A DNA stretch of 64,000 nt from Calidithermus chliarophilus DSM 9957 (GTDB taxonomy: Bacteria; Deinococcota; Deinococci; Deinococcales; Thermaceae). The translations under genes were made by a program, and so were the position numbers. The notes under the pieces are model-generated. The model was not told where the DNA came from. It was given only the letters and a program-made list of their open reading frames with translations, and searched no databases. Below, one piece after another: positions 17,577 through 35,315 of this stretch (within the stretch, counting starts at the first letter, position 1; each line of letters starts with the position of its first letter). The stretch covers positions 2,348,702-2,412,701 of the forward strand of contig NZ_KE387023.1 in assembly GCF_000430045.1 (NCBI RefSeq), written 5' to 3'.

Positions 17577-18848
17577 ATGGGACCAAAAATTTACTACCAC
17601 GTCGTTGGCAAAGCAAACGCCCAGAGGGACTTCCCCCGCACCCTCTTCAACCAGCGTGGCATCGATGAGGTGGTTTGCCACGTCCCGGAAAAAATCCTGC
17701 GTGAACACCGGATTATTGAAACCTTGCAGGCCAAGTTCCCAAGCGGAGCCTTTAACGCCTGGGGCGTGCCTGAAGGGGCCAGGGACGTGGTGCAAGCCCT
17801 TTCCCCTGGCGACGCAGTCTTTATCATCGAAAGCACCTCCCCGAAGAGCCGCACCACCGTGCTGGGAGTTGTGGAGGCCTTCTGGCCTGTGGAGTTGTAC
17901 GGCCTGTCTAAAGCGTTCTGGACTGAGAGCCGCTTTCCTTACATCTTCTTCTTCAGCTCCCAGCCGCTTAACCTAAGCTGGGAGGATTTCCGCGAGCTCA
18001 TAGGCTACTCGTCGAGGTACCGAGCGCCAGCCCTTTTTCTCAGGGTCCGTGAGGATAAGATTGCTTCAAAGGGCGGCCTCCGGGCCCTGCTTACAGCCCT
18101 GGGGGTGAACAGCGGGACGGCGCACCCGCGCAAGAGCACTGCCTGGACCCGGGACGCGCTAATCCTTGTGCTCGACCAGTACTTTCGCGGGGGTGTGCCC
18201 GAAGACCTGTCCCATTCGGCCATATCCGACTTGCACGAACTACTCAGGCAGTTACTAGAAACACACGGAGTGAAGCCCCTCTCTCCGCGCGACGTACACC
18301 GCAAGCTAGCCGACTTTGCGGGCCTGGACTCGTCTGGGGGGCCCACGGCATTCCCTCAACCTGGACGGGTGGGGGATGCAGAAATTGAGCTGTGGGGCGA
18401 CTTCGTAGGCAGACGGGGCGAGCTGGAGTCTATCGCAGAGGCAATCCGCTCGCAGCTTCAAGTCCGAGAAAAGGCGCCCGGCGAGGGGGAACTGCTGGAC
18501 GAGGCTGGCGAGGACTACCAGGCTCCTGAGGGCAGGTTGCTGCTTGCCACCCACAAGCGGCGCGAACGTAACCGCAACCTTGTCGAGGCCAAGAAGCAGC
18601 GCGTACTCGCTCTACGTGGGACCCTGCAGTGTGAGGTCTGCGGCTTCGACTTCCAGGAGGTGTACGGCGAGCTGGGCAGCGGCTTCATCGAGTGCCACCA
18701 CAACGTGCCGCTCGCCAGCCTGCCTGGGCCTAGGGAGAACTCGCTGGAGGACCTGGCACTCGTATGCTCTAACTGCCACCGCATGCTGCACAGGAGCCGG
18801 GAACACACGCTGACGGTGGAGGAGCTCAGGGCGATGCTCAGGGGCTAA
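17577..18848 (+). CDS. HNH endonuclease, McrA-like
   Basis: A 423-aa protein. The C-terminal ~90 residues are an HNH nuclease: CEVC (352-355), ECHHNVPLA (~371) and CSNCHRMLHR (~398), giving the metal site and two zinc-binding cysteine pairs. The N-terminal 150 residues (GDAVFIIESTSPKSRTTVLG) have the strand pattern of a PUA/EVE-like reader of modified bases, which is an inference. GGAGGAG precedes the ATG. Sits between the Mrr remnant and the core defence operon, and is a probable modification-dependent or restriction nuclease. Confidence 0.8.
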   Translation: MGPKIYYHVVGKANAQRDFPRTLFNQRGIDEVVCHVPEKILREHRIIETLQAKFPSGAFNAWGVPEGARDVVQALSPGDAVFIIESTSPKSRTTVLGVVEAFWPVELYGLSKAFWTESRFPYIFFFSSQPLNLSWEDFRELIGYSSRYRAPALFLRVREDKIASKGGLRALLTALGVNSGTAHPRKSTAWTRDALILVLDQYFRGGVPEDLSHSAISDLHELLRQLLETHGVKPLSPRDVHRKLADFAGLDSSGGPTAFPQPGRVGDAEIELWGDFVGRRGELESIAEAIRSQLQVREKAPGEGELLDEAGEDYQAPEGRLLLATHKRRERNRNLVEAKKQRVLALRGTLQCEVCGFDFQEVYGELGSGFIECHHNVPLASLPGPRENSLEDLALVCSNCHRMLHRSREHTLTVEELRAMLRG

Positions 18849-18880: not shown

Positions 18881-19894
18881 TCAGGCGTAGTGCCCCGGCC
18901 AGACGGCCTCGAGCGCCCACCAGGCCACGAAGGCCTGAGCCCCCTCGGGGTAGCGGCTGTCGTCCAGCAGGAGCACCACCTCGCTGGACAGGTATCCGCC
19001 GGTCCACACGCTCCACAAGGCCCCGCCGGGGAAGGGGATGGCGTCGCCCACGTCGCGGCCCTCGAAGTACTCCGGCGGGTCGAAGGCCATGCGGCACCAG
19101 TCGCTTTCCTTGATGCCCGGCCTCCCGGCGAAGCCCAGCCACTCCAAAAGCTCCCCGTCGGTGAAGTGGGGGTGCACCGGCAGGGGGGTGAGGATGCCGC
19201 TCTCGGTGACCCGCTTGTGGAAGATGGAAGCGCCGTCGTACTGCGAGTCCAGGTCGCTCAGGTACTCGGGCAGCAGGTGGGCGTACCGCACGAGGGTCTC
19301 GGGGGTCGCCTCGAGGTCCCGCGGGGCCTCCTCGTGCTCCATCACCTCGCCCAGGGCCGAGCTGACCCAGCCACCGTCCAGGGCCTCTACGAAGCGGACG
19401 GCCTCCTCCATGGCCACCTCGCCCGCCTGCACCCGGCGCTGCAGCCTTTGCAGGGCCTCCACCCAGGGCCGGTCGCCCTCGCCAACGTCCATGGCGGGCT
19501 CCCCGGTCTGGTTCATCACCAGCTCCACCGGCTCGGGCAGGGGGCTGGCCGCGGTCGCCAGCCGCTTCTGGCACAGGCGGGCGATGAAGTCCACCGGGTC
19601 GTGGGCAAGGCGCTCCAGCAGCTCCCGCGGGGTGCGTGGCTCGAGGGCCACCGCCCAGCGCTCGGGCCAGGTGCCTGCCGCCCACTGCCGCAGCTCATCG
19701 GGCTGGGGCGCGGTCTTGCGGTCCTCGAAGGCGTGCCAGCGGGGGTCCGCCGCGCTCCTGCGGGACTCGGCCACGGCCCACAGCTCGAGCATTCGCCTGT
19801 CGAGTTCCTGGGCCAGTTCGGCCCGGTCGGGGTCCTCAACGGCTAGCCATCGGAGAAAGCCGCTAAGCTCACCATCACCGCTTGACCACATCAC
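18881..19894 (-). CDS. Protein of unknown function, island
   Basis: A 337-aa acidic cytoplasmic protein, Trp-rich (LRQWAAGTWPERWAVAL), helical in the first two thirds and probably beta-rich after a PEYFEGRDVGDAIPFPGG segment. No signal peptide, membrane segment or motif recognised. It is divergent from the DUF499 ATPase gene with 118 bp between the starts, so it may share control with the operon. An internal ATG at 19891 is an alternative start. Confidence 0.7.
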   Translation of the reverse strand: MMWSSGDGELSGFLRWLAVEDPDRAELAQELDRRMLELWAVAESRRSAADPRWHAFEDRKTAPQPDELRQWAAGTWPERWAVALEPRTPRELLERLAHDPVDFIARLCQKRLATAASPLPEPVELVMNQTGEPAMDVGEGDRPWVEALQRLQRRVQAGEVAMEEAVRFVEALDGGWVSSALGEVMEHEEAPRDLEATPETLVRYAHLLPEYLSDLDSQYDGASIFHKRVTESGILTPLPVHPHFTDGELLEWLGFAGRPGIKESDWCRMAFDPPEYFEGRDVGDAIPFPGGALWSVWTGGYLSSEVVLLLDDSRYPEGAQAFVAWWALEAVWPGHYA

Positions 19895-19978
19895 CCACCT
19901 CCGGGCCTTAGCTTATTGGCGTGCTTACTTCCGACGGTCAGAAAGCCACGGGGTCTGTGGAGGTCGGGTTATTTGCGG

Positions 19979-20006
19979 TTACAGCATTTTCCAGCGCCGA
20001 TAGAAT
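19979..20006 (+). promoter_or_regulatory. Promoter of the defence operon
   Basis: -35-like TTACAG (19979-19984), 16-nt spacer, -10 TAGAAT (20001-20006), then 6 nt to the ATG at 20013. No ribosome site, so the operon is probably led by a leaderless message. Confidence 0.55.
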
Positions 20007-20012
20007 AGAACT

Positions 20013-23000
20013 ATGAAAGCTGAGAGTTATATGAGCACCGCATTGAGGCTTTACGCCGAGGCAGTGCGGTCATATTTCGTGCGCGAACTGACACGGGTCC
20101 ACGGCAGCGGGCGCGGGTGGGTCGAGGCCTACCTGGGTTCCCTGAGCGAGTCACGGCGGGCCCTGGTTTTAGAGGACATGAAGCGCGGCAGGACCGCCGA
20201 GGAGGTGCTCGACATCAACCACTTCAAGGACATCCTGCTCGGCCAGCGTGAGGTGTTCCGTGAGGCCTTCGGACGCAGCTACAACCGCGCCGTGACCTGG
20301 GCCGACGAAATCAGCGAGGTGCGAAACGCCTGGGCACACCAGCAGCAGCTCCCGGAGGAGGACGTCAACCGCACCCTCGACACCATCGCCCGCTTCCTGC
20401 GCCTCATCGGCGCGGAGGATTCGGCGACCGAAGTGCGCAAGCTCATGGAGCGTGACCTTCCCAGTTCTCCCAAGGGCAGCCTGCCGCCCTGGTGGCGTCT
20501 GGCCGAGCCCGATGAGGCCATCCGTAGGGGCGACTTCGACGAGAACACCTTCGCGGCCAAGCTCGACGACGTGGTGGCGGGGAGGGCCACGTCCGAGTAC
20601 CGCTACGCCGACGAGTTCTTCAAGAAAACGTACCTCACCAAGGAACTTGCCTCCATCCTCAAGGACACCGTGCGGCGTCTGGCTGGCCTTGGCGGGGAGG
20701 CGGTGGTGCAACTGCGCACGCCCTTTGGCGGCGGCAAGACCCACGCGCTGATTGCCCTGTACCACCTGGTCAAGGCCTACTCCGAGCTCACTGACTTGCC
20801 CGAGGTCAAGTCCCTGTTACAGGAGGCCGGGGTTGGCAGCATGCCGAGGGCCCGCGTGGCCGTCCTGGTCGGCACCGACCTCTCGGCCCAAGGACGCACG
20901 GCCGACGGCCTGCGCATCCGCACCCTGTGGGGCGAGTTGGCCTACCAACTCGGCGATAGGGCGGGCTACGAGACGCTGCGCTCCGCGGACGAGGCCATGA
21001 CCCCGCCCGGCAAGCAGGCCCTGGCCGCGCTCCTCCAGGCCTACAGCCCCGCCCTCATCCTGATGGACGAGCTCTTGGTCTACCAGGTCAAGGCCGCCTC
21101 GGTCTCCGTCGGCAGCACCAGCCTGCAGGCCCAGACCTTCGCCTTCCTCCAGGAGCTCACCGAAGTGGTCGGCAGCCAGAGCAACGCCGCCCTAGTCACC
21201 ACCTTCCCCGAGTCGCACATCGAGTACTACGACCATAAGGACTCGCCGGAGGTCTTCGCCCGCCTGGAGAAGATATTCGGACGGGTGCAGGCCGTGCGCA
21301 TGCCGGTGCAGGGGGAGGAAATCTACGAGGTGCTGCGGCGCCGCCTGTTCGAGCGCATCGACGGCGAGGGGGCCAAGCAGGTGGTGGCCGCCTACATGAA
21401 GGCCTACGAGGAGCTGAAGAACGAGCTGCCCAGCGAGGTGCGCAGCGGCGAGTACGGGCGCAAGATGCTCAAGGCCTTCCCCTTCCACCCCGAGCTGGTC
21501 AACGTCCTCTACGAGCGGTGGGGCACTATGCAGACCTTTCAGAAGACCCGGGGCGTGCTGCGCCTGCTGGCGCGGGTGGTCGAGGCCGGGTACCTTACGG
21601 CCTCGGCCCGTCCCCTCATCGGGCTCGGCGACGTGGCCCTGGAGTCCGCTGACCTGCGGGCCACTGTTACGAGCGTGCTCGAGGACGCCAACTGGGAGGC
21701 GGTGCTGGCCTCGGATATCATCCCCCCGGAAGGGAAGGCCTACCTGCTCGACCGTGAGCTCGGGGGCGACTACGCGCGCTACCGACTGGGCCAGTCGCTG
21801 GCCACGTCCGTGTTCTTCTACTCCCACTCCGGCGGTGGGGTGGAGCGGGGGGCCACCCGCCCGCAGCTCAACCTGGCTCTGGTGTACCCTGAGGGCATCT
21901 CGCCGCTGCTCATCGGCGACGCGCTCGACAACCTCAAGGGGCGGCTGCACTACCTGTACTCCAACGGGAGTTGGGCCTTCAAGGCCCAGCCCAACCTCAA
22001 CGCGGTGCTGGCCGACCGGATGGCCCACGTCAAGGCTGCCGACGTGGAGGAGTTGCTCAGGCAGCAGGTGGAGAAGGCCGTGGGGTCGGGGGTCTTCAGG
22101 GCCTACGTATGGCCCTCCAGCCACCGGGACGTGCCGGATAGCCACGGCCTCAAGCTCGTCGTGCTCGGACCCGACGCCCCGCACGACGACAAAGACGCCC
22201 TGGAGCGCGGCTACCGTGTCGTGCAGGACAACCACGCCTCCGGGCCACGGGTCTACAAGAACACCACCCTGTTCCTGGCGATGTCCCGTGCGGCCTACCT
22301 GCGGGCTCAGGAGGCGGCCCGTAAGCTGCTGGCGCTGGAGGACATCCGGTCAGACCGTGGGCTCGTGCTCTCGGACGAGCAGAAGCAGGACCTGGAACGC
22401 CTCCTCCGCGAGGCGCGGGAGTCCCTGCCCGCGGTGGTCAAGGGCTGCTACACGGGGATGCTCGAGCCCATGGACGCTAAAGGTGCCTACCGCTACCACG
22501 ACGTCACGGCTCACGCCAAGACCCAGGCCAACTTCCAGGCGATTGCCGTCGAGGTGCTGCGCTCGGAGGACCGCCTGCTGTCGGCCATCGACCCGGCCTA
22601 CCTGGTGCAGGGGCCGTGGGGCTTGTGGCCTACCGACGAGGCCTACTTGAGCCTGCGCGACCTGCGCGAGCACTTCCTGCGCCTGCCGCACCTGCCCTTC
22701 CTCGAACGCGACGAGGCGCTCAAGGAGGCGGTGGTCCGGGGCGTGCACATCCGCCTCTTCGAGCTGGGGGTCAAGGGTAGCGACGGCTTCGCCCAGGTGT
22801 GGCACGCCGGGAAGGCCCCCCGGCCGGAGGACGTGTTCTTCACCGAGGCCTACGTGCTGGCCCGCCCCGGCACCCTGCCGCGTCCCGATGAAGGAGGCGT
22901 CGTTACGGACCCTCCACCGCCTCCGCCGCCGGGTCCAAAAAACTCGGCGCCTGACCCCACGCCTGGGGGTAAGCCCGAGCCTAAGCAGGCCAAGACCCGG

Positions 23001-23210
23001 GTTAGGGTGACCCTGGAGCAGGTCGAGCTGGCCCGCATCCCGGCGCTGGTGGACCTGGCCAAGGCCCTGCGCGACGCCGGGGGCACCGTGCGCCTTCGGG
23101 TCGAGGTCGAGGCCTTCAACCCCCAGGGGCTCGACGAGGCGGTGCTGCGTACCTCGGCCCTGGAGATTCTCGACCAGTACAACCTCAAGGCCGACTGGCA
23201 GGAGGAGTAG
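20013..23210 (+). CDS. DUF499-type P-loop ATPase of the defence operon
   Basis: A 1,065-aa protein. The first ~130 residues look like a Swt1-type HEPN domain (TALRLYAEAVRSYFVRELT, then EVRNAWAHQQ with the RNase-type R...H pattern). A DUF499 ATPase follows, with Walker A TPFGGGKTHA near residue 236 and Walker B LILMDELLVY near 350. Late in the protein there is a PPPPPPPG linker (~965) and a C-terminal ~75-residue domain with alternating strands. The stop is 3 nt before the helicase ATG. DUF499 proteins recur beside DUF1156 methylases and helicases in putative anti-phage loci; here it is the first gene. Confidence 0.85.
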   Translation: MKAESYMSTALRLYAEAVRSYFVRELTRVHGSGRGWVEAYLGSLSESRRALVLEDMKRGRTAEEVLDINHFKDILLGQREVFREAFGRSYNRAVTWADEISEVRNAWAHQQQLPEEDVNRTLDTIARFLRLIGAEDSATEVRKLMERDLPSSPKGSLPPWWRLAEPDEAIRRGDFDENTFAAKLDDVVAGRATSEYRYADEFFKKTYLTKELASILKDTVRRLAGLGGEAVVQLRTPFGGGKTHALIALYHLVKAYSELTDLPEVKSLLQEAGVGSMPRARVAVLVGTDLSAQGRTADGLRIRTLWGELAYQLGDRAGYETLRSADEAMTPPGKQALAALLQAYSPALILMDELLVYQVKAASVSVGSTSLQAQTFAFLQELTEVVGSQSNAALVTTFPESHIEYYDHKDSPEVFARLEKIFGRVQAVRMPVQGEEIYEVLRRRLFERIDGEGAKQVVAAYMKAYEELKNELPSEVRSGEYGRKMLKAFPFHPELVNVLYERWGTMQTFQKTRGVLRLLARVVEAGYLTASARPLIGLGDVALESADLRATVTSVLEDANWEAVLASDIIPPEGKAYLLDRELGGDYARYRLGQSLATSVFFYSHSGGGVERGATRPQLNLALVYPEGISPLLIGDALDNLKGRLHYLYSNGSWAFKAQPNLNAVLADRMAHVKAADVEELLRQQVEKAVGSGVFRAYVWPSSHRDVPDSHGLKLVVLGPDAPHDDKDALERGYRVVQDNHASGPRVYKNTTLFLAMSRAAYLRAQEAARKLLALEDIRSDRGLVLSDEQKQDLERLLREARESLPAVVKGCYTGMLEPMDAKGAYRYHDVTAHAKTQANFQAIAVEVLRSEDRLLSAIDPAYLVQGPWGLWPTDEAYLSLRDLREHFLRLPHLPFLERDEALKEAVVRGVHIRLFELGVKGSDGFAQVWHAGKAPRPEDVFFTEAYVLARPGTLPRPDEGGVVTDPPPPPPPGPKNSAPDPTPGGKPEPKQAKTRVRVTLEQVELARIPALVDLAKALRDAGGTVRLRVEVEAFNPQGLDEAVLRTSALEILDQYNLKADWQEE

Positions 23211-23213
23211 CCC

Positions 23214-26200
23214 ATGCGTTGGGACTCCCTCGTGGACCGGGTCCTGCAGGCCCCCTTCTGGCCCGAGCCGGTGCGGGTTTTGCGGGTAGCGCCCGCCGGG
23301 GGGCGGTATGCCGTGGTGGCGGAGGGCCTCTCCAGCCGCCAGACCCACCACCGCCTCCTCGGAGAGGCTGACGTGGCTGACCTGCTGCGCTCGGGCCAGT
23401 CCGAGGAGCGGCCCTTCGGCGGGGACGGCGAGCTGTTCGCCCTAGGGGTCGAGGCCAGGCGCATCCAGCTCGGCTACGCCTTCGACCCCTTTTTCGCGGT
23501 CTCAGCCAGCCGCATTGACCCGCTGCCGCACCAGCTCGAGGCCGTCTACGGCGTGCTCCTGAAGAAGTCACGTGTGCGCTTTCTGCTCGCGGACGACCCC
23601 GGGGCTGGGAAGACGGTAATGGCTGGACTTTTTCTCAAGGAGCTCAAGTACCGGGGGGTGCTGGAGCGCGCTCTCATCGTCACTCCGGCCAACCTCACCG
23701 ACCAGTGGCAGCGCGAGCTGAAGGAGAAGTTCGGCGAGACCTTCGAGGTCATGAACCGTGACTCGGCCACCGCCGCCTATCAGGACAACCCCTGGGAGAA
23801 GCGCTCCCAACTCATCACCAGCATCGACTTTGCCAAGCGGGAGGAGAACCTGAGCCTCCTGGAGCGGGTGCAGTGGGACCTGGTGATTGTGGACGAGTCC
23901 CACAAGCTCTCGGCCACCCGCTACGGGGCCGAGGTCAAGAAGTCGCAGCGCTACCGCCTGGGCGAGGTGCTCGCCAGGAGCAGCACCCACCTGCTGTTCC
24001 TCACCGCCACGCCCCACCAGGGAGACGACGAGAAGTTCCGGCTGCTCCTCGACCTGCTCGAGCCCGACCTCTTCGCCAACACGGCCCTGCTGCAGGAGGC
24101 TGCTCGGAAGAACGAGAACCCCATTCTGCTGCGCCGCCTCAAAGAGGACATGACCGACTTCGAGGGCAAGCCCCTCTTCCCGCCGCGCTACGTGCACAGC
24201 CTGTCCTTCAAGCTCTCGCCCAGCGAGCGCGAGCTCTATGCCAAGGTCAGCGATTACGTGGGCAAGCACTTCAAGCGGGCCTGGGACGAGCGGCGGCGCA
24301 ACGTGGGGCTGGCGATGACGGTCCTGCAGCGGCGCCTGGCCAGCAGCACCTACGCCATCGCGCAGAGCCTGGAGAACCGCCAGCGGCGGCTGGAGTCGCT
24401 GCGGCAGCAGGTGGCCGCGCTGCAGGAGAACCCCTACGGCGAGTACACCGAGGAGGAGCTGGAGGAGATGGCCGAGGACGAGCGTTGGCGGGTGGAGAAC
24501 GCCATCGCCGAACGCCTGACCCTCGCCCGCAACCTGCCCGAGCTGGAGGCCGAGCTGGGCGAGCTGGAGGTTCTGGTGAAACAGGCCCGCACCCTGGCTC
24601 GTCTGGAGGACGACCGCAAGCTGAAGGAGCTGCTGTCGGTGCTGGAGAAGCTGGGGGACGAGAAGCTGCTCATCTTCACCGAGCACAAGGACACCCTGCG
24701 CTTCCTGGTCGAGGTGCTGCGCAAGCGCGGCTACGCCGTGACCTCTATCGACGGCTCGATGACGCTGGAGGAGAGGGTCATGCGCGAGCGGGAGTTCCGC
24801 GACAGCGCCCAGGTGATGGTCGCCACTGAGGCCGCGGGCGAGGGCATCAACCTGCAGTTCTGTGCGGTGATGGTCAACTACGACCTGCCCTGGAACCCCA
24901 CCCGCCTCGAGCAGCGCATGGGCCGCATCCACCGCTACGGGCAGCGCTACGACGTACACATCTACAACCTGGTGGCCGAGGGCACCCGTGAGGGCGAGGT
25001 GCTGAAGGTGGTGCTGGACAAGCTCGAGGTCATGCGGGCGCAGATGGGCTCCGACCGGGTCTACGACGTGGTGGGCGAGCTGCTTTCCGACGTCAACCTC
25101 GAGGCCCTCATCCTGGAGCACCTCACCGGACGCAAGACCCTGGCGGAAATCCGTGCCGTGGTCGAGGCCCGCCTGTCGCCCGAGCGGGTCGAGTTCATCC
25201 GGGAGGTCACCCTGGAGGCGCTGGCAAAGCGCGAGCTGGACCTGTCCCGCCTGCGAGAAGAGCGGGAGCGCTCCGAACACTACCGCCTGCAGCCCGAGTA
25301 CACCCAGCGCTTTTTCGTGCGGGCCCTGACTCGCCTGGGTGGGGGTGTGGAGCGGCGTGGTGACGGTCTTTTCCGGGTCACAGTGCCCTACGACCTCACT
25401 CGCAGGCGGCCTGGGGTACTGGCTCGCGAGTATGGGAAGGTCACCTTCGACCCCAAAGTGCGCCAGGAGGCCGAACTCATCGCGCCGGGTCACCCCCTCT
25501 TCGACCTGGTTCTGGAGGAGACACTGGCTCAGGCCGCACCCGTGCTGCGCCAGGGAGCTGCCTTCCAGACCGACCAGGGCACCGAAGGGGTGCTGGGATA
25601 CCTGGAAATGAGCGTGGTGGACGGGCTGGGGCAGACCGTGTCCCGCAGGCTGTACGCCGCCGTGGCCGCAGACACGGTGCAGGCAGTCCCCGCCGAGTTC
25701 ATCGTGGACACCGAGCCAGCCCCTTCCCATGAGCTCCCGAGCGTGGACGCGGCAGCAGCGAAGGAGAAGCTGCTGGCCTGGGCCTACGACCAGGTGCTCG
25801 ACAGCTTCTTCGAAGAGGTGGTAAGCGAGCGCAGGCGCGAGGTCCACATCCGCCGCAAGTACGCCCGCCGGAGCCTGGAGTACCTGATTGAGGAGTCGGT
25901 CAGGAAGCTCACCCAGTACAAGCTCAAGTCCGATGAGGGAGAGGCCATGCGGCTGGCCATCCTGCAGGAGGAGCGCAAGCTGAAGGACTTGGAGGAGCGG
26001 CTGAAGTCCCTCGACGATGTGCTGGCGCGGGCCGAGGCCCTTCACCCCCAGCCTGCGGAGGTGTTCGCCCAGGCCTACCTGCGTCCGCGCCCGCTGGGCG
26101 TCCCCAGCGAGGATGACCCTGCAGTCCGCAAGGCGGTGGAGGAGGCCGCCATGCGGGTCAGCATGGCTTACGAGGCAGCTCAGGGGCGCCAGCCGCGCGA

Positions 26201-26492
26201 CGTCAGCCTGGAGAACCTGGGTTACGACATCCGCTCGGGAGACCGCCACATCGAGGTCAAGGGGCGGGCAGGGGTGGGGCCGGTGGTGCTGACCCCGAAC
26301 GAGTGGATTTCCGCCCGCCGCATCGGTGGGCAGTACTGGCTCTACATCGTGACCGAGGCCCTCACCAGACCGCGCCTTCACCTCATCCAGGACCCCGCGG
26401 CCAAGCTGACCCCCGGCGAAGAGGTGAGCGTGGTGCGCTACGTATTGCCTTTGGAGGAGTGGCAGCAGCATGCCGAGGCTGCAGCAAAATGA
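23214..26492 (+). CDS. SNF2-family helicase with C-terminal DUF3883-like domain
   Basis: A 1,092-aa superfamily 2 motor. Walker A DDPGAGKT (127-134), DESH (227-230), LTATPHQG (~263-270), and in the second RecA-like domain ATEAAGEGINLQ and QRMGRIHRYGQ (~566-576), which identify a SNF2/RapA-like enzyme. A long coiled region follows the helicase core. The C-terminal ~100 residues (ENLGYDIRSG, HIEVKGRAG) resemble DUF3883, found at the ends of restriction and defence helicases, with an ExK-like pair. GGAGGAG precedes the ATG, and its stop overlaps the darT start. Similar to DrmD-like helicases in role. Confidence 0.9.
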   Translation: MRWDSLVDRVLQAPFWPEPVRVLRVAPAGGRYAVVAEGLSSRQTHHRLLGEADVADLLRSGQSEERPFGGDGELFALGVEARRIQLGYAFDPFFAVSASRIDPLPHQLEAVYGVLLKKSRVRFLLADDPGAGKTVMAGLFLKELKYRGVLERALIVTPANLTDQWQRELKEKFGETFEVMNRDSATAAYQDNPWEKRSQLITSIDFAKREENLSLLERVQWDLVIVDESHKLSATRYGAEVKKSQRYRLGEVLARSSTHLLFLTATPHQGDDEKFRLLLDLLEPDLFANTALLQEAARKNENPILLRRLKEDMTDFEGKPLFPPRYVHSLSFKLSPSERELYAKVSDYVGKHFKRAWDERRRNVGLAMTVLQRRLASSTYAIAQSLENRQRRLESLRQQVAALQENPYGEYTEEELEEMAEDERWRVENAIAERLTLARNLPELEAELGELEVLVKQARTLARLEDDRKLKELLSVLEKLGDEKLLIFTEHKDTLRFLVEVLRKRGYAVTSIDGSMTLEERVMREREFRDSAQVMVATEAAGEGINLQFCAVMVNYDLPWNPTRLEQRMGRIHRYGQRYDVHIYNLVAEGTREGEVLKVVLDKLEVMRAQMGSDRVYDVVGELLSDVNLEALILEHLTGRKTLAEIRAVVEARLSPERVEFIREVTLEALAKRELDLSRLREERERSEHYRLQPEYTQRFFVRALTRLGGGVERRGDGLFRVTVPYDLTRRRPGVLAREYGKVTFDPKVRQEAELIAPGHPLFDLVLEETLAQAAPVLRQGAAFQTDQGTEGVLGYLEMSVVDGLGQTVSRRLYAAVAADTVQAVPAEFIVDTEPAPSHELPSVDAAAAKEKLLAWAYDQVLDSFFEEVVSERRREVHIRRKYARRSLEYLIEESVRKLTQYKLKSDEGEAMRLAILQEERKLKDLEERLKSLDDVLARAEALHPQPAEVFAQAYLRPRPLGVPSEDDPAVRKAVEEAAMRVSMAYEAAQGRQPRDVSLENLGYDIRSGDRHIEVKGRAGVGPVVLTPNEWISARRIGGQYWLYIVTEALTRPRLHLIQDPAAKLTPGEEVSVVRYVLPLEEWQQHAEAAAK

Positions 26493-27124
26493 AGCCGCCC
26501 GTGCTTATCTACCACATCACGCACATAGAAAACCTTAGAGGCATCCTGGAAGAAGGGCGCCTCTGGGCGAAAAACCTGTTGCCGAGGCTATGCACCAGCA
26601 TTGCCTACGAACATATTCAGGAGGAGCGGGCCCAGCGAACGGTGCCGGTAGGCCCTGGAGGGGTCCTGCACGACTACGTGCCTTTTTACTTTTGTCCCCG
26701 TTCGCCCATGCTCTATGCCCTACACAACCCCGTGGAAGGGCAGATGCACTACAGGGGAGGCCAAAGGCCCATCCTGCACATCGTCTCGAGCGTCGAACGG
26801 GTCGAGCAGGCTGGCTTACCTTTTGTTTTCACAGACCGACATGCCAAGAAAAAATACGCGGATTTCTTCACCCAAAAAGCCGACTTTGCCCGGCTGGACT
26901 GGCAGGCTATCCGAGCCCGGCGTTGGTTCGACACGCCCGAACAGCCCTACCGTAAGGAAAAGAAGCAGGCTGAGCTCCTGGTTCACCGTTTTTTCCCATG
27001 GGAACTGGTCGAGGGCATCGGGGTCTTGGATTCGGGCATGGCTAGGGGGGTTCGACAAGTCCTCGAGGCCTTCCCCAAGGCAATGTGGCGAACTGTCTGG
27101 GTTAAACGCGATTGGTACTATTGA
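26489..27124 (+). CDS. darT: DarT-type DNA ADP-ribosyltransferase toxin
   Basis: A 211-aa DUF4433/DarT protein. The NAD-pocket opening VLIYHITHIENLRGIL, an HDYVPFYFCPRSPMLY segment, and KKQAELLVHRFFPW near residue 160, where Glu162 is the likely catalytic residue, match the family. DarT enzymes ADP-ribosylate thymidine in single-stranded DNA and block replication. The start ATG overlaps the helicase stop (ATGA), so translation is coupled to the defence operon. A longer frame beginning at 26303 overlaps the helicase and is rejected. Neutralised by darG downstream. Confidence 0.88.
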   Translation: MKPPVLIYHITHIENLRGILEEGRLWAKNLLPRLCTSIAYEHIQEERAQRTVPVGPGGVLHDYVPFYFCPRSPMLYALHNPVEGQMHYRGGQRPILHIVSSVERVEQAGLPFVFTDRHAKKKYADFFTQKADFARLDWQAIRARRWFDTPEQPYRKEKKQAELLVHRFFPWELVEGIGVLDSGMARGVRQVLEAFPKAMWRTVWVKRDWYY

Positions 27125-27139
27125 GCTATGGGGGGGGCG

Positions 27140-28189
27140 ATGGTCCAGTACAAACAGGGTGACCTCTTGCAGGCTCCTGTAGAGGCTCTGGTCAACACGG
27201 TCAACACCGTGGGGGTGATGGGTAAGGGGGTGGCTCTACAATTCAAGCGGGCCTATCCCGAGAACTACCGGGCCTACGAAGCTGCCTGCCGCAAGGCACA
27301 GGTGCAGATTGGTCGTATTTTCGTGTTCGACCGTGGGCCTTTGTCTCGTCCCCGCTACATCCTTAACTTTCCCACCAAGAAGCACTGGCGACAGCCCTCG
27401 CGCCTCGAGTACGTTCGGGAGGGCCTGGCCGACCTGGTGCGACAGGTGGCGGAGCTTGGCATCCGCTCGCTGGCCCTACCGCCTTTGGGCGTGGGCAACG
27501 GCGGCCTGGACTGGGCTGTGGTGCGGCCCCTGATTGAGGAGGCTTTTGCTGGCTTGCCGGAGGTGGAGGTCTGGGTTTTCGAGCCCCAGCCTGGGTTTCA
27601 GGCCGACCTGGCTCCGGCCTCGAGCAAACCCCACCTCACCCCAGCCAGGGCTGCTCTGCTCAAGTTGTTTGCCCTTTACAGCGCCCTAGGCGAACCGGTG
27701 GGCAGACTCGAGGCCCAAAAGCTGGCCTACTTCCTCCAGGAAGCCGCCATGCCCCTCAAGCTGAACTTCGTGAAGCAACAGTACGGCCCTTATGCTGAAA
27801 ACCTCAACCCAGTGTTGCAGCGCCTCGAGGGCCACTACCTCCGGGGATACGGCGACCGCAACACCCCTTCGGCCATGCAACTGGCTCCCGGAGCCCTGGA
27901 CGAGGCGGTAGCCTTCCTGGCCGACCACCCGGAGGCCGACGAGGCAGTAAGCCGTGCTGCCGAGCTTATCGAGGGCTTCGACTCGCCGTATGGTCTAGAG
28001 TTGCTGGCTACGGTACACTGGGCTTTCACCCGTGAAGGAGCCCAGGACTGGGCCTCGCTGCTGAAGGTGGTTCGCGCTTGGAGCCCCCGCAAAGAGCGCT
28101 TCCTCGAAGCCCACCTGCGGGTAGCGGTAGAGCACCTGGCCCAGAAGGGCTGGCTCCCTCAGCCTGTAGCCGATTCAGCACAGTCGTAG
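27140..28189 (+). CDS. darG: DarG macrodomain antitoxin
   Basis: A ~349-aa protein. The first ~155 residues are a macrodomain: QGDLLQAPVEALVNTVNTVG, GKGVALQFK and PPLGVGNGGLDW line the ADP-ribose pocket; the enzyme removes ADP-ribose from DNA. The remaining ~190 residues match the C-terminal DarG part that binds and blocks DarT (EAQKLAYFLQE, KQQYGPYAENLNPVL). ATG 27140 gives the usual N-terminus; an in-frame ATG at 27128 is separated from it by a run of eight G. Starts just after darT. Confidence 0.88.
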   Translation: MVQYKQGDLLQAPVEALVNTVNTVGVMGKGVALQFKRAYPENYRAYEAACRKAQVQIGRIFVFDRGPLSRPRYILNFPTKKHWRQPSRLEYVREGLADLVRQVAELGIRSLALPPLGVGNGGLDWAVVRPLIEEAFAGLPEVEVWVFEPQPGFQADLAPASSKPHLTPARAALLKLFALYSALGEPVGRLEAQKLAYFLQEAAMPLKLNFVKQQYGPYAENLNPVLQRLEGHYLRGYGDRNTPSAMQLAPGALDEAVAFLADHPEADEAVSRAAELIEGFDSPYGLELLATVHWAFTREGAQDWASLLKVVRAWSPRKERFLEAHLRVAVEHLAQKGWLPQPVADSAQS

Positions 28190-28202
28190 CTGGCCGTATC
28201 TA

Positions 28203-28240
28203 AACTCTGAAAGCTGAGTTCTTAACTCTGATTCAGAGTT
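28203..28240 (+). promoter_or_regulatory. Operator-like inverted repeats before the methylase gene
   Basis: Two adjacent inverted repeats share AACTC/GAGTT half-sites: AACTC...GAGTT at 28203-28220 and a perfect AACTCTG-ATT-CAGAGTT at 28224-28240; another GAGTT lies at 28254-28258. They occupy the only sizeable gap (74 bp) of the operon, so separate control of the methylase is plausible. Confidence 0.5.
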
Positions 28241-28263
28241 GTTGCCGAAATTGGGAGTTCAAT

Positions 28264-30993
28264 ATGAAGCAGAAACGCCGCCTTATCGAGCACCGTTTAC
28301 CCCTCAAGGAAATCTCGGAAGCCTCCGCCAGGGAGAAATCCATCCGCCACGGCCACATCTCCACCCTGCACATCTGGTGGGCGAGGCGTCCCCTGGCCGC
28401 CAGCCGCGCCGCCGTGTTCGGCACGCTGGTGCCCGACACCGACGAGAACTACGAGCTGGTGAAGCAAATCGTCCCCTGGGAGGCCGTGAAGGACGGCAAC
28501 AACGGGGCCATCCTCGAGGCCCGCCGCCGCGTCCTGGAAGCCAACGGGGGCAAGCCGCCCAAGGTGCTCGACCCCTTCGGCGGGGGCGGGGCGATTCCGC
28601 TGGAGGCCCTGCGCCTGGGCTGCGAGGTCTACAGCCTCGACCTCAACCCGGTGGCCCACCTCATCCAGCGGGCCACGCTGGAGTACCCCCAAAAGTACGG
28701 CCAGCCCGGCAGCCGCCCGGTTCCTGAGCACATCCGGGCCAAGGACACCGCCAAGGGCAAGGGCCGCCAGTCGCTGGACTTTGGCGACGGGGAATGGACC
28801 AGCAGCTACCAGCAGAACCCCCTGGCCGCCGAGGTGCGCTACTGGGGCGAGTGGGTGCTCGAGCGGGCCAAGGCCGAGCTTTCCGAGTTCTACCCGCCCG
28901 ATGCCGACGGCAAAACCCCGGTGGCCTACCTGTGGGCCCGCACCGTGACCTGCACCAACCCCACCTGCCGCGCCGAGGTGCCCCTGGTGCGCCAGTGGTG
29001 GCTGGCCAAGAAGGACAAAAAGCGCATCGCCCTGAGGCCCAAAGTAGATGCGGAGGCCAAGACTGTTTCGTTTGAGGTGGTGGAGGTGGGCAGGGGCGAG
29101 GAGTGGCCCGACAAGGGAACCATCGAGCGGGGAAACGCCACCTGCTTGGTCTGCGGCACGGCCATTCCCTCGTCTGAGACACAAAATCAGGCTAGGGCGG
29201 GAAAGTGGGGGGAGCGTCTTTTGGCGGTTGTGCTGAGTGACAAAGGCGAAAGCGGAAAAGTCTATCGCGCCCCCACCTCAAACGACGAGGCAGTCTTAGA
29301 GCGGGCCAAGTCAAGGTTGGAGGAGCTGAAGCAGGGCGAGAGTCCGTTTGGTGAGCTTCCCCTAATCCCCGATGAACCCATTCCTTACGAGCCTCGAGCA
29401 TTCACCCCTTGCATCTACGGCTTCAAGGAATGGGGCCAGCTTTTCAACCCCCGCCAGGCCCTGGCCCTGGTCACCTTTGCCAAGTGGGTGCGCGAGGCCC
29501 ACGCCGAGATGCTGAAGGTGGGGATGGATGAGGAGTGGGCTCGAGGGGTGGCGACATATTTAGCGCTTGCACTAGATAAGCTTGCAGACTATACCTCAAC
29601 GCTTTGCACCTGGCATTTCCATAATCGTGAAAAAGTGAGTCACACATTCACTCGTCAGGCCCTACCTATGGTTTGGGATTATGTTGAAATAAACCCTTGC
29701 GAAAGAGCCTCGGGTGACTGGCAAGGCTCGTTCGAATGGTTTGAAATCACCCTGAAGACCCAGGGATTTTCGACTGTATCAGACAGCCATATACTGCGCG
29801 GCACCGCTACCCGCCTCCCCTTCGAAGACAACTTCTTCGACGCCATCATCACCGACCCGCCCTACTACGACGCCGTGCCCTACGCCGACCTCTCGGACTT
29901 CTTCTACGTCTGGCTCAAGCGCACCATCGGCCACCTCTACCCCGAGCACTTCCGCACCCCCCTTACGCCCAAGCGCGAGGAGGCGGTGCAGAACCCGGTG
30001 CGCCACGGGGGCGACAACCAGCGGGCCAAGCAGTTCTTCGAGGAGATGATGGGCCAGGCCTTCCGCGAGATGCACCGGGTGCTCAAGCCCCATGGCGAGG
30101 CCACCATCGTCTTCGCCCACAAGAGCACCGAGGCCTGGGAGACCCTCATCGGCGCGCTGATTCGGGCGGGGTTCCAGGTGGAGGCCTCCTGGCCCCTGCA
30201 CACCGAGATGCAGACCCGGCTCAGGGCCAGGGACTCAGCGGCGCTGGCCTCCTCCACCTTCCTCAACTGCACCAAGCGCGAGGGGGGGAGCATGGGCTTC
30301 TTCGCCGAGGTGCGCCGGGAGATGCAAGAGGCCATCCGCCCACAGCTTGAAGAGTTCTGGGAGGCGGGGATTCGCGGGGCCGATTTCTTCATGTCGGCCA
30401 TCGGGCCGGGGCTGGAGGCCTATAGCCGCTACGACGTGGTCAAGCGGGCCGACGGGCGCGAGGTTACGGTGGGGGATTTCCTGGACGAGGTGCGGAAAAT
30501 CGTGCTGGAGTTCGCCCTTAGCCGGGTGCTGGGGGCGAAGGCCATGGGCGCAGTGGATGGGCCTACCCAGTTCGCCCTGCTGGCGCTTTGGGCTTACGGA
30601 GCCGAGCTGCCCTCTGATGAGGCCCGCAAGCTGGCCCAGAGCACGGGGGTGGAGCTGCGCGAGCTGGGCACGCTGGTGCAGGAGAAGGGGGAGAAAACCA
30701 CCCTCCGGCTGTCGAAGGACCGCGCGAAGGACAAGAACTTAGGCATCCCCAGCACCACCGGGTCGGTGCCCATGATAGACGCGTTGCACCATACGCTCCT
30801 GAAGATGCGCGAGGGCAAGCAGGCCATCGCGGATTACCTGAGCGAGGTGGGATACCTGGAGCAGGAGGCCTTCTGGCAGAGTGCCCAGGCCCTGTCCGAG
30901 GTGCTGGGAGACAGTGACGAGGGGCGTTCAATACATGAACTGTTGTCGGTACGCGGCGGGTTGCCGAAGGCGGCTGCGGCTCGCCTGCTCTAG
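28264..30993 (+). CDS. DUF1156-family DNA methyltransferase of the defence operon
   Basis: A 909-aa methylase. The N-terminal DUF1156 part has IEHRLPLKEIS and HIWWARRPLAASRA. AdoMet motif I is VLDPFGGGGAIP (from residue ~101) and catalytic motif IV is ITDPPYYDAVPY (D531-Y534), as in N4-cytosine/N6-adenine enzymes. Between them are CTNPTC and CLVCG pairs, likely a zinc finger. Motif I before IV with a very large insert is typical of this group. GGGAG lies 7 nt before the ATG. Its likely role is to mark host DNA as self; target sequence unknown. Confidence 0.9.
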   Translation: MKQKRRLIEHRLPLKEISEASAREKSIRHGHISTLHIWWARRPLAASRAAVFGTLVPDTDENYELVKQIVPWEAVKDGNNGAILEARRRVLEANGGKPPKVLDPFGGGGAIPLEALRLGCEVYSLDLNPVAHLIQRATLEYPQKYGQPGSRPVPEHIRAKDTAKGKGRQSLDFGDGEWTSSYQQNPLAAEVRYWGEWVLERAKAELSEFYPPDADGKTPVAYLWARTVTCTNPTCRAEVPLVRQWWLAKKDKKRIALRPKVDAEAKTVSFEVVEVGRGEEWPDKGTIERGNATCLVCGTAIPSSETQNQARAGKWGERLLAVVLSDKGESGKVYRAPTSNDEAVLERAKSRLEELKQGESPFGELPLIPDEPIPYEPRAFTPCIYGFKEWGQLFNPRQALALVTFAKWVREAHAEMLKVGMDEEWARGVATYLALALDKLADYTSTLCTWHFHNREKVSHTFTRQALPMVWDYVEINPCERASGDWQGSFEWFEITLKTQGFSTVSDSHILRGTATRLPFEDNFFDAIITDPPYYDAVPYADLSDFFYVWLKRTIGHLYPEHFRTPLTPKREEAVQNPVRHGGDNQRAKQFFEEMMGQAFREMHRVLKPHGEATIVFAHKSTEAWETLIGALIRAGFQVEASWPLHTEMQTRLRARDSAALASSTFLNCTKREGGSMGFFAEVRREMQEAIRPQLEEFWEAGIRGADFFMSAIGPGLEAYSRYDVVKRADGREVTVGDFLDEVRKIVLEFALSRVLGAKAMGAVDGPTQFALLALWAYGAELPSDEARKLAQSTGVELRELGTLVQEKGEKTTLRLSKDRAKDKNLGIPSTTGSVPMIDALHHTLLKMREGKQAIADYLSEVGYLEQEAFWQSAQALSEVLGDSDEGRSIHELLSVRGGLPKAAAARLL

Positions 30994-31038: not shown

Positions 31039-32238
31039 ATGTGGTCCAGAGGAAAGCGCATCTTCACAGTAAAGAACGAGGTCGCTGTCCCGAACCCGCC
31101 GCCCGTGCGGATTCTGAGGTCGAGGGGCTTCACCCCGGTGGACTTAGAAACCACCCCGGGCGAGGTGTTCATATTGATGGCTCAGGGCTCCCTTGTCTCA
31201 AACATCCCCGACGTGATTGTTGCGGACGCGGCGGCGGGCTTCGTCAGGTACTCCCACATGCTGAGCGGGACGGGCACCATGCTCGACCTAGCGAAGAGCC
31301 CGGCCGATGTGTACAAGGACTTCGTGAAAACCTCGTTCGCGGGCCAGTGGGGCATCCCGTTTAGCCTTAAGCGTCTCAACGAGATGGGGTACCACTGGTT
31401 CGCCCACTTTGAGCACGGCACACCGTCAGCAGCTTCTAGGGGGCCGGACTACGTGATGATGCACGAAAGTGGCATCCCTGCCCTACTGGAGTCCAAGGGA
31501 ACGCTCGAAACCGACGAATCTAGAGCGTGGGAAACGACGACCGGGGCTTACCGCTCCCAGGTGCAGCCCTGGCTCGGAAAGTCCAGAGACTACAACGGCG
31601 TGAGCGTGCACTTCGGATGCGGGTTCGCTGTAACCACGCTCACCGACGCGGCAGGGACGGGTGTTTACGTCGTGCACACCCAGGGCGCCCCCACGGCCCC
31701 GGTAGCGGTTCCCTTCGCCCGCCCGCGTTCGATGAGTGTGCCGCTCTCGAGCCCTATCGTGGTGCTTCACTACGCGCGTTGGCTGCGCCTGATGGGTCTT
31801 AGACCCCAAGCACTGGCTTTAGAGCAGGGAATGTATAGAAATGGAGCGTTTGAACCACCAACTGGATTGGACTTGCCGCCAATCCGTTTATTTCGTTACC
31901 GCTACCGTGGACAGGAGTACCATTTCAGCGAGGAGCTTTTCCTTTGGTTCATCCTGGAGCCCGGCTTCTATCTCAGGTACCCACTCTTTAAGCTCGGCTT
32001 AAGGTGTGAACTATCTAGCAGGTTGCTACGTGCTGTATACCGCCGAGCTGGCAGGTCTGATGACGTGGAAAATAGGCTGGTTGACATTGAGCTGGAGTTT
32101 GGAACGCGCAATAATGAACAGCTCGATGGCGTCCTGATGTTCGCTGATGGGGCGATAGCAGTCTTCTACGATGACACCCCGGCCCAATGGGATGAATCAT
32201 TTGACCCCATAAGCACTGATTTATTCGACATGTTGTAG
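31039..32238 (+). CDS. Unknown protein with PD-(D/E)XK-like nuclease motif
   Basis: A 399-aa protein not recognised as a named family. Residues 136-137 are PD, followed after 13 residues by ESK (151-153) in GPDYVM...PALLESKGT, the arrangement of a PD-(D/E)XK nuclease core; a hydrophobic strand precedes the ExK. A VTTLTDAAGTGVYVVHT strand pair and a Leu/Arg-rich C-terminal half follow. It lies 45 bp downstream of the methylase on the same strand and could be the DNA-cutting effector. A TAATAC box abuts the ATG. Lower GC than neighbours. Confidence 0.6.
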   Translation: MWSRGKRIFTVKNEVAVPNPPPVRILRSRGFTPVDLETTPGEVFILMAQGSLVSNIPDVIVADAAAGFVRYSHMLSGTGTMLDLAKSPADVYKDFVKTSFAGQWGIPFSLKRLNEMGYHWFAHFEHGTPSAASRGPDYVMMHESGIPALLESKGTLETDESRAWETTTGAYRSQVQPWLGKSRDYNGVSVHFGCGFAVTTLTDAAGTGVYVVHTQGAPTAPVAVPFARPRSMSVPLSSPIVVLHYARWLRLMGLRPQALALEQGMYRNGAFEPPTGLDLPPIRLFRYRYRGQEYHFSEELFLWFILEPGFYLRYPLFKLGLRCELSSRLLRAVYRRAGRSDDVENRLVDIELEFGTRNNEQLDGVLMFADGAIAVFYDDTPAQWDESFDPISTDLFDML

Positions 32239-32655: not shown

Positions 32656-32980
32656 GCCGAACCCCCTCAGGTGTGGCGGTGTGTAGCCGGATGTAACCCG
32701 AGGTGTACCCGCGGGAGTCGCGTTTCGGGCGCTGTGCCTTGGACTCGGTTACACCTTCTACACCTCTACTCGCTACTGGGCACGCGCGGGCCCTCAAGTC
32801 AGACCCTGGGTTTGAACAGCGAAAGGCATCAGCGCCCCTGAGGTCGGATAGGTGTAACCGGCCTCGGTTATTGCTGTCTGGGGCGAAGCTCTTGCCCGCT
32901 GCACCTGGGGTGTAACGGCTACACCCCAGGTGAAAACCCGCCACTTTACCGTTCATGGCGTGGGTCTTCCGCTTATTCAT
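32639..32980 (-). CDS. Doubtful 113-codon ORF after the primase gene
   Basis: ATG at 32980 overlaps the primase stop and has GAGGAG 5 nt upstream, which argues for translation. Against it, third-position GC is clearly lower than in neighbours, the product is Ser/Arg/Gly-rich with no motif, and the frame runs through the GTGTAAC repeats and the 13-bp palindrome. Either a real small gene overlapping a regulatory region or chance. Confidence 0.28.
   Translation of the reverse strand: MNKRKTHAMNGKVAGFHLGCSRYTPGAAGKSFAPDSNNRGRLHLSDLRGADAFRCSNPGSDLRARACPVASRGVEGVTESKAQRPKRDSRGYTSGYIRLHTATPEGVRHVAPS
32671..32932. other. Candidate replication origin / iteron-like region
   Basis: A 260-bp stretch with repeated GTGTA(A)C elements on both strands: around 32681-32697, GGTTACACC at 32747-32755, GGTGTAACC at 32851-32859, and GGTGTAAC at 32909-32916 inside a perfect 13-bp palindrome CACCTGGGGTGTA / TACACCCCAGGTG (32902-32914, 32920-32932). 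It lies beside the primase/helicase gene. Repeats plus palindrome next to a replication gene suggest an origin, but an operator is also possible. Confidence 0.45.
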
Positions 32981-35315
32981 CGTAGCTCCTCTGCACCACG
33001 GCCAGCACGCGCACTGAGAGGCCATCTCGCTTGCGGGGGATGGTGGCTTTCCCGTCGCTGCCGGGCAGAATCAACCCGCGCTCTGCCCATCTCTGGCCGT
33101 GTAGCTGCACCGCCGTCTTTCCCATGCGCTCGGTGAACGCGCCGGTACCGGTGGGCACGAACCAGACCTTCTGCCCCTGATACTCACCTTCCCACGCCAC
33201 CACCTCCCCCTTCAGGCGCCGCCCGCCCGAACCGTCAGGACCGGCGGCAGCGATGAGGCCGCTAAGGTCTTCCCAGGCCTCCGAGGAGGGGTCCCTCAGG
33301 CTGGCGGCACTGCTGAGGAGCCCCTGCCACTGCACCGGCAGGTCGCGAAAGGAGTCAGGATAGGGCAGCTCAAGAGCCCCACAGGCGTACCCAAGGGTCA
33401 CCATCACGTGAGCGAACACGTCGTTCCAGGGCGCGGGCAGGTAGGTGAAGCTCTGAGCGAACTGAGGTTGGCTGCCGCGGTAGTCCTCCCAGTTCAGCCA
33501 CACCCGCTCGGACACTAGCCGCCCCAGGGTGCCAGCCCCTGCGCCCCACGCCGCTTCGAGGAGGGCGGCCCTCTCCCCGGCGTCCCGTCGCCCCAGCGGC
33601 ATCCAGTGAGGGCCCTCGAGCCACAGCACCCTGCGGTGGGCGCCGTGGTGGCGGAAGGCGGGGAGGGCCTCCCCGGCCAGCAGGAGGGCACCGCCGATGG
33701 AGGTACCGCCGCGCGCCCTGCCGTCCGCCCCGCCGCGGGTGTAGCTCTCGCCGTTGGCGAACTGGTAGACCAGCTTTTCGAGCGGGTTGTCCTGCTCCCG
33801 CGCGGTGTGGGCCTCGTCGATGAAGAGGGGTAGGCCGCCGAGGCGCTCAAGGGTCTGTAGGTAACCCGCCAGCGTGGTCCGCCCGGCCTCCAGCCGCAGG
33901 GGGCTGTGGGTCGGGTCACCCCACACCCCGACGGCGAACTGGGCCAGGGTGCTCTTGCCGGTTCCCGAGTCCCCCGCCAGGTAGAGCACCGGGTTTCGCC
34001 GCACGCCCGCGCGAACAATCGCGGGGGCCGCGAGGGCAAGACCCAGGGCCGTCCAGAAGGCACCGGCATCCTCCCAGCCGCTAGCTTCCTCCAGCACCCG
34101 GCGGTAGGCACCGAGGTCCTTGCCGACCCGTACGGCAGGTTCGGGTTTGACGGCGGTGTGGATGTCCCCCACGGCCCCGTCGGGCAGCACCAGGGTGCTC
34201 CCGCGGCGGTAGAGGCCCAGGCGGCTGGCGCGTGATTCGTGTGGGAGGGCGGTGCGGTTATGGTGGGCGAAGGCGACGAGGTAAGCAGCCACCTCCTTCG
34301 CGTTGACCTCCGACACGGCGGCCCCTCGAGCGGCAAGGTACTCGAGTACGCCCTTGGCCTTGGCCAGTTCGGCGCGCGGCGCTGTCACTGTGGTGCGGCT
34401 GTCGAGCCCCCTGTCGAAGGCCACGGTAAGGGTTTCGTCGCCCGTGTCGAGGTCGCTTCCCAGGGCGGTCACCGCCAGGTGGCCCGGGTATACGGGGCGC
34501 GGCTTGTCGCCGACCATGCGGTAGAGGCCCCCCTGCTCGAGGGAGTAGCCCTCCGGCAGGAATAGCTTCTGACCCGTCAACGGGTGGGTGCCGAGCGGGC
34601 CACGGGCTTCGTGTCCCTGCGGGGTCTGAAGGTATTCGAGGGGGTTGTAGCCCGCGGCCAGCGCGTCGTCCACCCCGAGTTTGCGCCCCCCGGGCTCTGG
34701 CAGGTACAGCACCCGCACGTGGGCCCCCCGGCTAGCCAGGAAAGCCGCGAGGCGCTCGAGGGCCAGCTTGACCTGCTCCTTGCGCACCACGTCGGAGTCG
34801 AAGGCCAGGACCACTTCGCGCCCGTTGAAGGCGATTTCCTCGAAGTCGGGCAGGCTCGTCTTGCCGCCCTGACCGTTCTTGCCGCGCCAGCCCCAGACCC
34901 CGTTGAGGTTGACGGGCATCACCGCGTCGCCGAAGTGGCTCGCCAGGGCGTCTGCCTTCTTGGCACCCTCGGTGAACCAGAGGGGCACCGAGGGGTCGCC
35001 CAGCGCGCTGCGGTAGCGCGGCAGCACGTCGAGCACCAGGTTGACGCTCATGGGCCACTCGTACTTGATGGTTTTGCCGCCAGGTTGGCGCGGTCTGTCG
35101 GGGCGCAGCATATGAGTGTAGGGTTCAGGCCTGCCCAGACGGTAGACAGGGATGAGCAGCCCGGGCACCCTCATCTGCTGGCTCTCGAAGCCCTGCAGGT
35201 CCTCCTTGCGGGTGACCGTGCGGTAGCCCCGCTCGGCAATGACTGGCTCGCTGATGGCGCTCGCCGCGAGCTGCTCCCGGTGTTCTTCGCTGATGTATAT
35301 TGGTTTTGTCATCAT
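32973..35315 (-). CDS. Primase/helicase-type replication protein (DUF3854 plus DUF927-like)
   Basis: A 780-aa protein. The N-terminal third has a TOPRIM-like DUF3854 domain (LWFTEGAKKADAL about 113-124, VVLAFDSD about 168-175). The C-terminal half is a DUF927-like P-loop ATPase with GDSGTGKST near residue 450 and LPLFIDEAH near 500. Such proteins start replication of plasmids, satellites and integrative elements. Start at ATG 35315 with a GAGGTG site and a TATACC -10 upstream on the minus strand. It follows the excisionase gene, from which a terminator separates it. Confidence 0.83.
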   Translation of the reverse strand: MMTKPIYISEEHREQLAASAISEPVIAERGYRTVTRKEDLQGFESQQMRVPGLLIPVYRLGRPEPYTHMLRPDRPRQPGGKTIKYEWPMSVNLVLDVLPRYRSALGDPSVPLWFTEGAKKADALASHFGDAVMPVNLNGVWGWRGKNGQGGKTSLPDFEEIAFNGREVVLAFDSDVVRKEQVKLALERLAAFLASRGAHVRVLYLPEPGGRKLGVDDALAAGYNPLEYLQTPQGHEARGPLGTHPLTGQKLFLPEGYSLEQGGLYRMVGDKPRPVYPGHLAVTALGSDLDTGDETLTVAFDRGLDSRTTVTAPRAELAKAKGVLEYLAARGAAVSEVNAKEVAAYLVAFAHHNRTALPHESRASRLGLYRRGSTLVLPDGAVGDIHTAVKPEPAVRVGKDLGAYRRVLEEASGWEDAGAFWTALGLALAAPAIVRAGVRRNPVLYLAGDSGTGKSTLAQFAVGVWGDPTHSPLRLEAGRTTLAGYLQTLERLGGLPLFIDEAHTAREQDNPLEKLVYQFANGESYTRGGADGRARGGTSIGGALLLAGEALPAFRHHGAHRRVLWLEGPHWMPLGRRDAGERAALLEAAWGAGAGTLGRLVSERVWLNWEDYRGSQPQFAQSFTYLPAPWNDVFAHVMVTLGYACGALELPYPDSFRDLPVQWQGLLSSAASLRDPSSEAWEDLSGLIAAAGPDGSGGRRLKGEVVAWEGEYQGQKVWFVPTGTGAFTERMGKTAVQLHGQRWAERGLILPGSDGKATIPRKRDGLSVRVLAVVQRSYDE

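Follow-up and report, generated by a model that had tools for sequence, protein, structure and literature searches.

DUF499-centred BREX-related Type-1 systems, also called Hma, combine a helicase (HmaA), a methylase (HmaB) and an ATPase (HmaC), usually in the order A-B-C. Their gene neighbourhood was first described in PMC3710099, and PMC12839542 reports the HEPN fusion for 1370 of 2446 taxa and fusion of the helicase to the nuclease for 79%. Cargo between Hma genes has a precedent in the Hma-embedded candidates (HEC) of the Payne et al. 2024 preprint, as cited in PMC12988326. The toxin-antitoxin pair DarTG, in its DarTG2 form, lies inside a type I restriction-modification (RM) operon of E. 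coli as part of the EPEC RRDM island (RptR, type I RM, DarTG2 and M48), which protects against phage (PMC12255303). DarTG is also carried by the Thermus phage phiMa and is absent from its near relative Cumys (PMC11437467). Here we describe an operon in a 64,000-nucleotide stretch of the 4.69 Mb genome of Calidithermus chliarophilus DSM 9957 (Deinococcota, Thermaceae), hereafter the window, in which a DarTG pair sits among Hma genes.

Results

Organization of the operon

Five intact open reading frames (ORFs) on the + strand span positions 20013-30993 in the order hmaC, hmaA, darT, darG and hmaB (Table 1), with spacings of +3, -4, +3 and +74 bp. Profile searches of the operon proteins in Pfam, PADLOC and NCBIfam gave scores of 85 to 700 bits, with Pfam domains found for every gene; the gene order on one strand given in the initial annotation holds. 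Because of these scores and of dN/dS ratios of 0.13-0.27 in all five genes, chance is excluded. The darT ORF opens at a GTG at 26303; homology and the alignment to Thermus DarT begin at ATG 26489, which overlaps the TGA of hmaA as ATGA, and the same overlap is found in L036, a locus with the same five genes in a second genus. The proposal of a leaderless promoter is borne out by comparison: read by eye, the window and four relatives (L035, L036, L037 and L040) have a TANNNT hexamer that is separated by exactly 6 nt from the ATG of hmaC, and apart from this hexamer the upstream DNA of the relatives is unrelated.

Table 1. Coordinates of the features of the operon and of the compared loci (window positions unless a locus is given)
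Feature	Position	Strand	Description
-10-like hexamer TAGAAT	20001..20006	+	6 nt 5' of hmaC ATG; putative leaderless promoter, TANNNT-N6-ATG
hmaC	20013..23210	+	Swt1-like HEPN and DUF499 AAA ATPase, 1065 aa
hmaA	23214..26492	+	SNF2 helicase with C-terminal NOV_C/DUF3883 PD-(D/E)XK nuclease, 1092 aa
darT	26489..27124	+	predicted ssDNA thymidine ADP-ribosyltransferase toxin, 211 aa; start overlaps hmaA stop
darG	27128..28189	+	predicted macrodomain ADP-ribosylglycohydrolase antitoxin, 353 aa
hmaB	28264..30993	+	predicted DUF1156 N6-adenine methyltransferase, 909 aa
Exchangeable cargo segment	26444..28200	+	hmaA end, darT, darG; absent from L035 and L037
Two tandem palindromes	28203..28240	.	28203-28220 and 28224-28240, before hmaB; candidate operator
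PsyrTA-like pair and Schlafen AlbA_2 gene	L038 4730-9425; L040 10208-14915		hmaA-hmaB slot
Hma locus L144	2063-9578		Aquificaceae; hmaB split in two ORFs with ~4.8 kb of cargo between, including a DarT-macrodomain fusion
Hma locus L204			Leptolyngbya plasmid; DarTG and other toxin pairs between the DUF499 and DUF1156 genes
Type I RM locus L191	125-11982		Meiothermus taiwanensis plasmid, family of the window; hsdM, DUF262, hsdS, darT, darG, AAA ATPase, DUF4276, hsdR

Across about 8-36 kb of the window the G+C content is 0.62-0.69, below that of the flanks, and this suggests an island. Upstream of the operon and on the same strand lies a gene for an HNH endonuclease protein (17577-18848) with a weak match to type IV methyl-directed restriction enzymes. 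A + strand ORF 5' of hmaC (19038-20003) was rejected as a gene, being antisense to another long ORF and Ser/Arg-rich. Directly 3' of hmaB, a 399-aa ORF (31039-32238) has no match in Pfam, PADLOC or NCBIfam and is missing from the related Hma loci that were compared first. The - strand encodes, at 32973-35315, a DUF927 and DUF3854 protein, of a type that is frequent in mobile elements.

Assignment of the trio and of the pair

Judged by sequence, the trio is HmaC, HmaA and HmaB of Hma: ATPase, helicase and methylase are all present and correspond domain by domain to the three core proteins of PMC12839542, including the N-terminal HEPN and the C-terminal REase. Pfam detects HEPN_Swt1 and DUF499 in HmaC, SNF2/Helicase_C and NOV_C (69 bits) in HmaA, and DUF1156 and methyltransferase domains in HmaB, and the PADLOC scores are 531, 700 and 524 bits, respectively. 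The catalytic motifs are intact. In HmaC the HEPN domain keeps Rx4-6H as RNAWAH at residue 104, and the Walker A/B motifs are GGGKT at 239 and LILMDE at 348; HmaA has GAGKT, DESH and QRMGRIHR of the helicase and D..EVK of the PD-(D/E)XK nuclease, and HmaB has DPFGGGG at 103 and DPPY at 531. As in Hma / BREX-related Type-1, the operon proteins have no HKD and no DUF3780 match in Pfam; HmaC gave no match to solved structures. The window departs from usual Hma in its order, C-A-B instead of A-B-C, and in the DarTG that fills its A-B slot, and the published evidence on Hma comes from members other than this one. Membership in DISARM or BREX is rejected because the scores stay under the equivalog thresholds of both systems (DrmD 387 bits, cut-off 610) and the partners are missing: neither DrmB nor DrmC is among the matches listed for the operon proteins, and these proteins gave no PglZ or BrxC match in Pfam, PADLOC or NCBIfam. 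The initial annotation had likewise set the locus apart from DISARM and from BREX proper. It was also right to see a defence locus in which a methylase would mark self, next to a helicase (here fused to a nuclease) and a HEPN/ATPase, and right about the position of DarTG inside the operon.

The darT-darG pair can be assigned as a canonical thermophile DarTG2: a DarT of ART fold that has the catalytic Arg and Glu, and next to it a macrodomain DarG, are both present. Pfam detects DarT and Macro domains in the pair, and in NCBIfam DarT scores 242 bits against toxin_DarT (cut-off 150) and DarG 428 bits against antitoxin_DarG (cut-off 250). The match of DarT to Thermus DarT 7omv covers the full length (238 bits), and in our reading of this alignment the catalytic Arg column is kept and Glu stands where the 7omv sequence has Ala, which is taken to be the mutated catalytic Glu position. 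The macrodomain of DarG matches 5m31 and its C-terminal part the DarG chain 7yk3_B. Like the other thermophile DarTG2 (Thermus DarT 7omv, DarG 5m31, phage phiMa), the pair is of full length with its catalytic columns kept; unlike that of phiMa, it sits in an Hma operon, coupled to hmaA, and not in a phage. By analogy to the Thermus homologue with solved structures, DarT would ADP-ribosylate thymidine and DarG would reverse the modification.

Exchange of cargo between hmaA and hmaB

The close hmaA/hmaB clade comprises seven loci (the window and L035 to L040), in which the slot between hmaA and hmaB is exchangeable, its cargo being swapped between conserved flanks. The slot is empty in two loci, with a gap of 31 bp in L035 and a 4-bp overlap in L037, and holds DarTG in the window and L036. 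In L038 and L040 it holds about 4.8 kb with a RecQ-PRTase PsyrT (782 bits in L038) and a DprA-like gene, a PsyrTA-like pair, along with a Schlafen AlbA_2 gene; one of the two hosts appears to be Meiothermus hypogaeus. In L039 an antitoxin-like ORF and a PIN-like toxin ORF occupy it, named as a Phd/PIN pair from their sequences and the Pfam tally of cargo. Nucleotide similarity between the window and L038 ends at 26443 and restarts at 28201, and the replaced segment is therefore that of about 26444-28200. Although their cargo differs, the window, L036 and L038 share the ~64 bp before hmaB, which include two tandem palindromes that look like an operator. L040 has other tandem palindromes at that site and also a different C-terminal end of its Schlafen AlbA_2 protein, and the empty slots of L035 and L037 have no palindromes before hmaB. 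The perfect palindrome of the pair occurs once in the genome, and a genome-wide regulon was rejected, the only exact match being at this site.

Ancestry and selection

Trees of DarT and of DarG both join the sequences of the window and L036 to those of Thermus phage phiMa and of two Thermus-genus loci from the same family (DarG 100/99, DarT 99/97), which places the DarTG of the window, by sequence, as sister to that of phiMa and its prophages. No Hma genes adjoin these close relatives in the phage and prophages. The trees force an origin apart from window/L036 for the DarTG of the Leptolyngbya locus L204. The Aquificaceae fusion of L144 was left out of the trees; a third origin is likely for it because its architecture differs. 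DarT thus entered Hma loci by at least two separate captures, and probably by a third.

Amino-acid identity between the window and L036 is 82-91% over the five genes, and dN/dS is 0.15 for hmaC, 0.16 for hmaA, 0.15 for darT, 0.14 for darG and 0.27 for hmaB. All five genes, toxin included, are therefore under purifying selection between two genera, and the five-gene form has been kept.

Cargo in other Hma loci and DarTG in type I RM operons

Our census covered Deinococcota and the best 80 Hma loci of GTDB. About half of the A-B gaps carry cargo, 47 of 94 being at least 350 bp long; B-C gaps of this size occur in 42 of 85. The Pfam tally of 145 cargo ORFs includes AbiEii-like AAA, Schlafen AlbA_2, NYN, Fic, HicAB, PIN, MNT and Phd, and PADLOC HEC-01A profiles match seven cargo ORFs. 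The window resembles HEC in that its cargo sits between Hma genes and differs in that this cargo is the already known DarTG. With purpose-built profiles, DarT was found in four of the 112 Hma loci examined (window, L036, L144 and L204), in three phyla, a rate that is inflated because DarG led to L204 and because the analysis set out from the window. A single DarG-like macrodomain of 150 aa (L062, 3352-3804) stands between hmaB and hmaC in a locus lacking DarT and is either an orphan antitoxin or a remnant.

Some type I RM operons, too, carry DarTG, placed between their hsdS and hsdR genes: in Meiothermus (L184 and L191), in another locus of the same phylum (L187), in E. coli (L202) and in cyanobacteria (L200, L214 and, with a partial DarG, L218). 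In Myxococcota, the phylum of Hyalangium, none of 13 loci has DarTG beside type I RM. In the window as in the EPEC RRDM island, DarTG2 stands among the genes of a defence operon based on DNA modification; the two differ in that the host system of the window is Hma and not type I RM, and in that its operon has no RptR or M48 gene.

Discussion

The initial annotation had read the five genes as one undescribed system. Against this reading, which we reject, stand the identity of the trio with the named Hma system, found as a rule free of DarTG (108 of 112 loci examined have no DarT), and the varying content of the slot. It had also been considered beforehand that the trio might commonly occur by itself and that DarTG might be a lone insertion in this strain; the former is the case, whereas DarTG reaches beyond one strain, to a second genus with the same five genes and, as independent cases, to other phyla.

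With confidence somewhat above even, we favour a reading in which Hma forms an RM-like first line and DarTG a co-expressed, self-contained abortive second layer. HmaB would methylate host DNA and so mark self, while HmaC, an AAA ATPase with HEPN, and HmaA, a translocating helicase with nuclease, would recognize and destroy unmethylated invading DNA; the HEPN of HmaC is a possible suicide RNase. DarTG would be transcribed together with the Hma genes, with darT translationally coupled to hmaA. Should a phage get past Hma and DarG lose its hold on DarT, the released toxin would ADP-ribosylate thymidines in ssDNA at replication forks, and replication would stop. The activities and the co-transcription assumed here are those expected from the families; DarT would presumably act against phage in this host with a trigger of its own. 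The two-layer reading does not account for the candidate operator before hmaB, and the fact that modification operons have taken up DarTG and other toxins time and again could point to functional coupling rather than to two independent layers.

Such coupling would be closest in a single integrated system, in which Hma, on sensing foreign DNA, would itself set DarT free as its replication-stopping effector, with DarG as a safety lock. The tight operon, its ATGA coupling kept in two genera, and the independent captures of DarTG by Hma and type I RM in several lineages, which suggest selection for the combination, fit this idea. We nevertheless regard it as unlikely, given that DarT is present in so few Hma loci (one of them met through its DarG), that the slot takes unrelated cargo or none, that close DarTG relatives in phage and prophages do without adjoining Hma genes, and that HmaA already has an intact nuclease domain. 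Quite unlikely, too, in our judgement, is a wiring in which engagement of Hma, for instance by a HEPN RNase that halts protein synthesis or by helicase-made single strands, frees or feeds DarT, so that modification-based defence operons would repeatedly recruit DarTG for a two-stage suicide response.

Much of the Hma-slot cargo is toxin-antitoxin-like (Fic, HicAB, PIN, Phd, MNT) and DarTG is also carried by phages and plasmids, as would be expected if the pair stabilized the Hma locus through the death of cells that have lost it and hardly acted against phage directly. Yet DarTG2 is a demonstrated anti-phage module, with the DarTG2-in-RM island protecting E. coli (PMC12255303), and the copy in the window lies on a contig of 3.08 Mb rather than on a small plasmid, which makes such addiction distinctly improbable. 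If the slot were a recombination hotspot, DarTG could be a passenger of no functional consequence; this would agree with cargo exchange between conserved flanks but is very improbable, as purifying selection acts on all five genes, toxin included, and the active-site residues are kept.

Hma, DarTG, cargo in Hma and DarTG in an RM operon are each already known, as is the stacking of defences in one operon, and DarTG as an operon-internal module, which the initial annotation took not to be a standard description, has a published case in a type I RM operon from E. coli (PMC12255303). The details of the combination, DarTG in Hma with a traceable series of slots and cases in three phyla, may be novel; our literature search, which covered papers other than the Payne et al. 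2024 preprint, found no description of DarTG inside Hma. Since DarTG has repeatedly and independently entered Hma and type I RM operons, our data suggest selection for pairing DNA-modification defence with a replication-stopping toxin. Thermaceae and their relatives offer a natural series on one Hma backbone, with the slot empty or filled by DarTG, PsyrTA or Phd/PIN, which would allow measuring what an embedded toxin-antitoxin pair adds to a restriction-like system.
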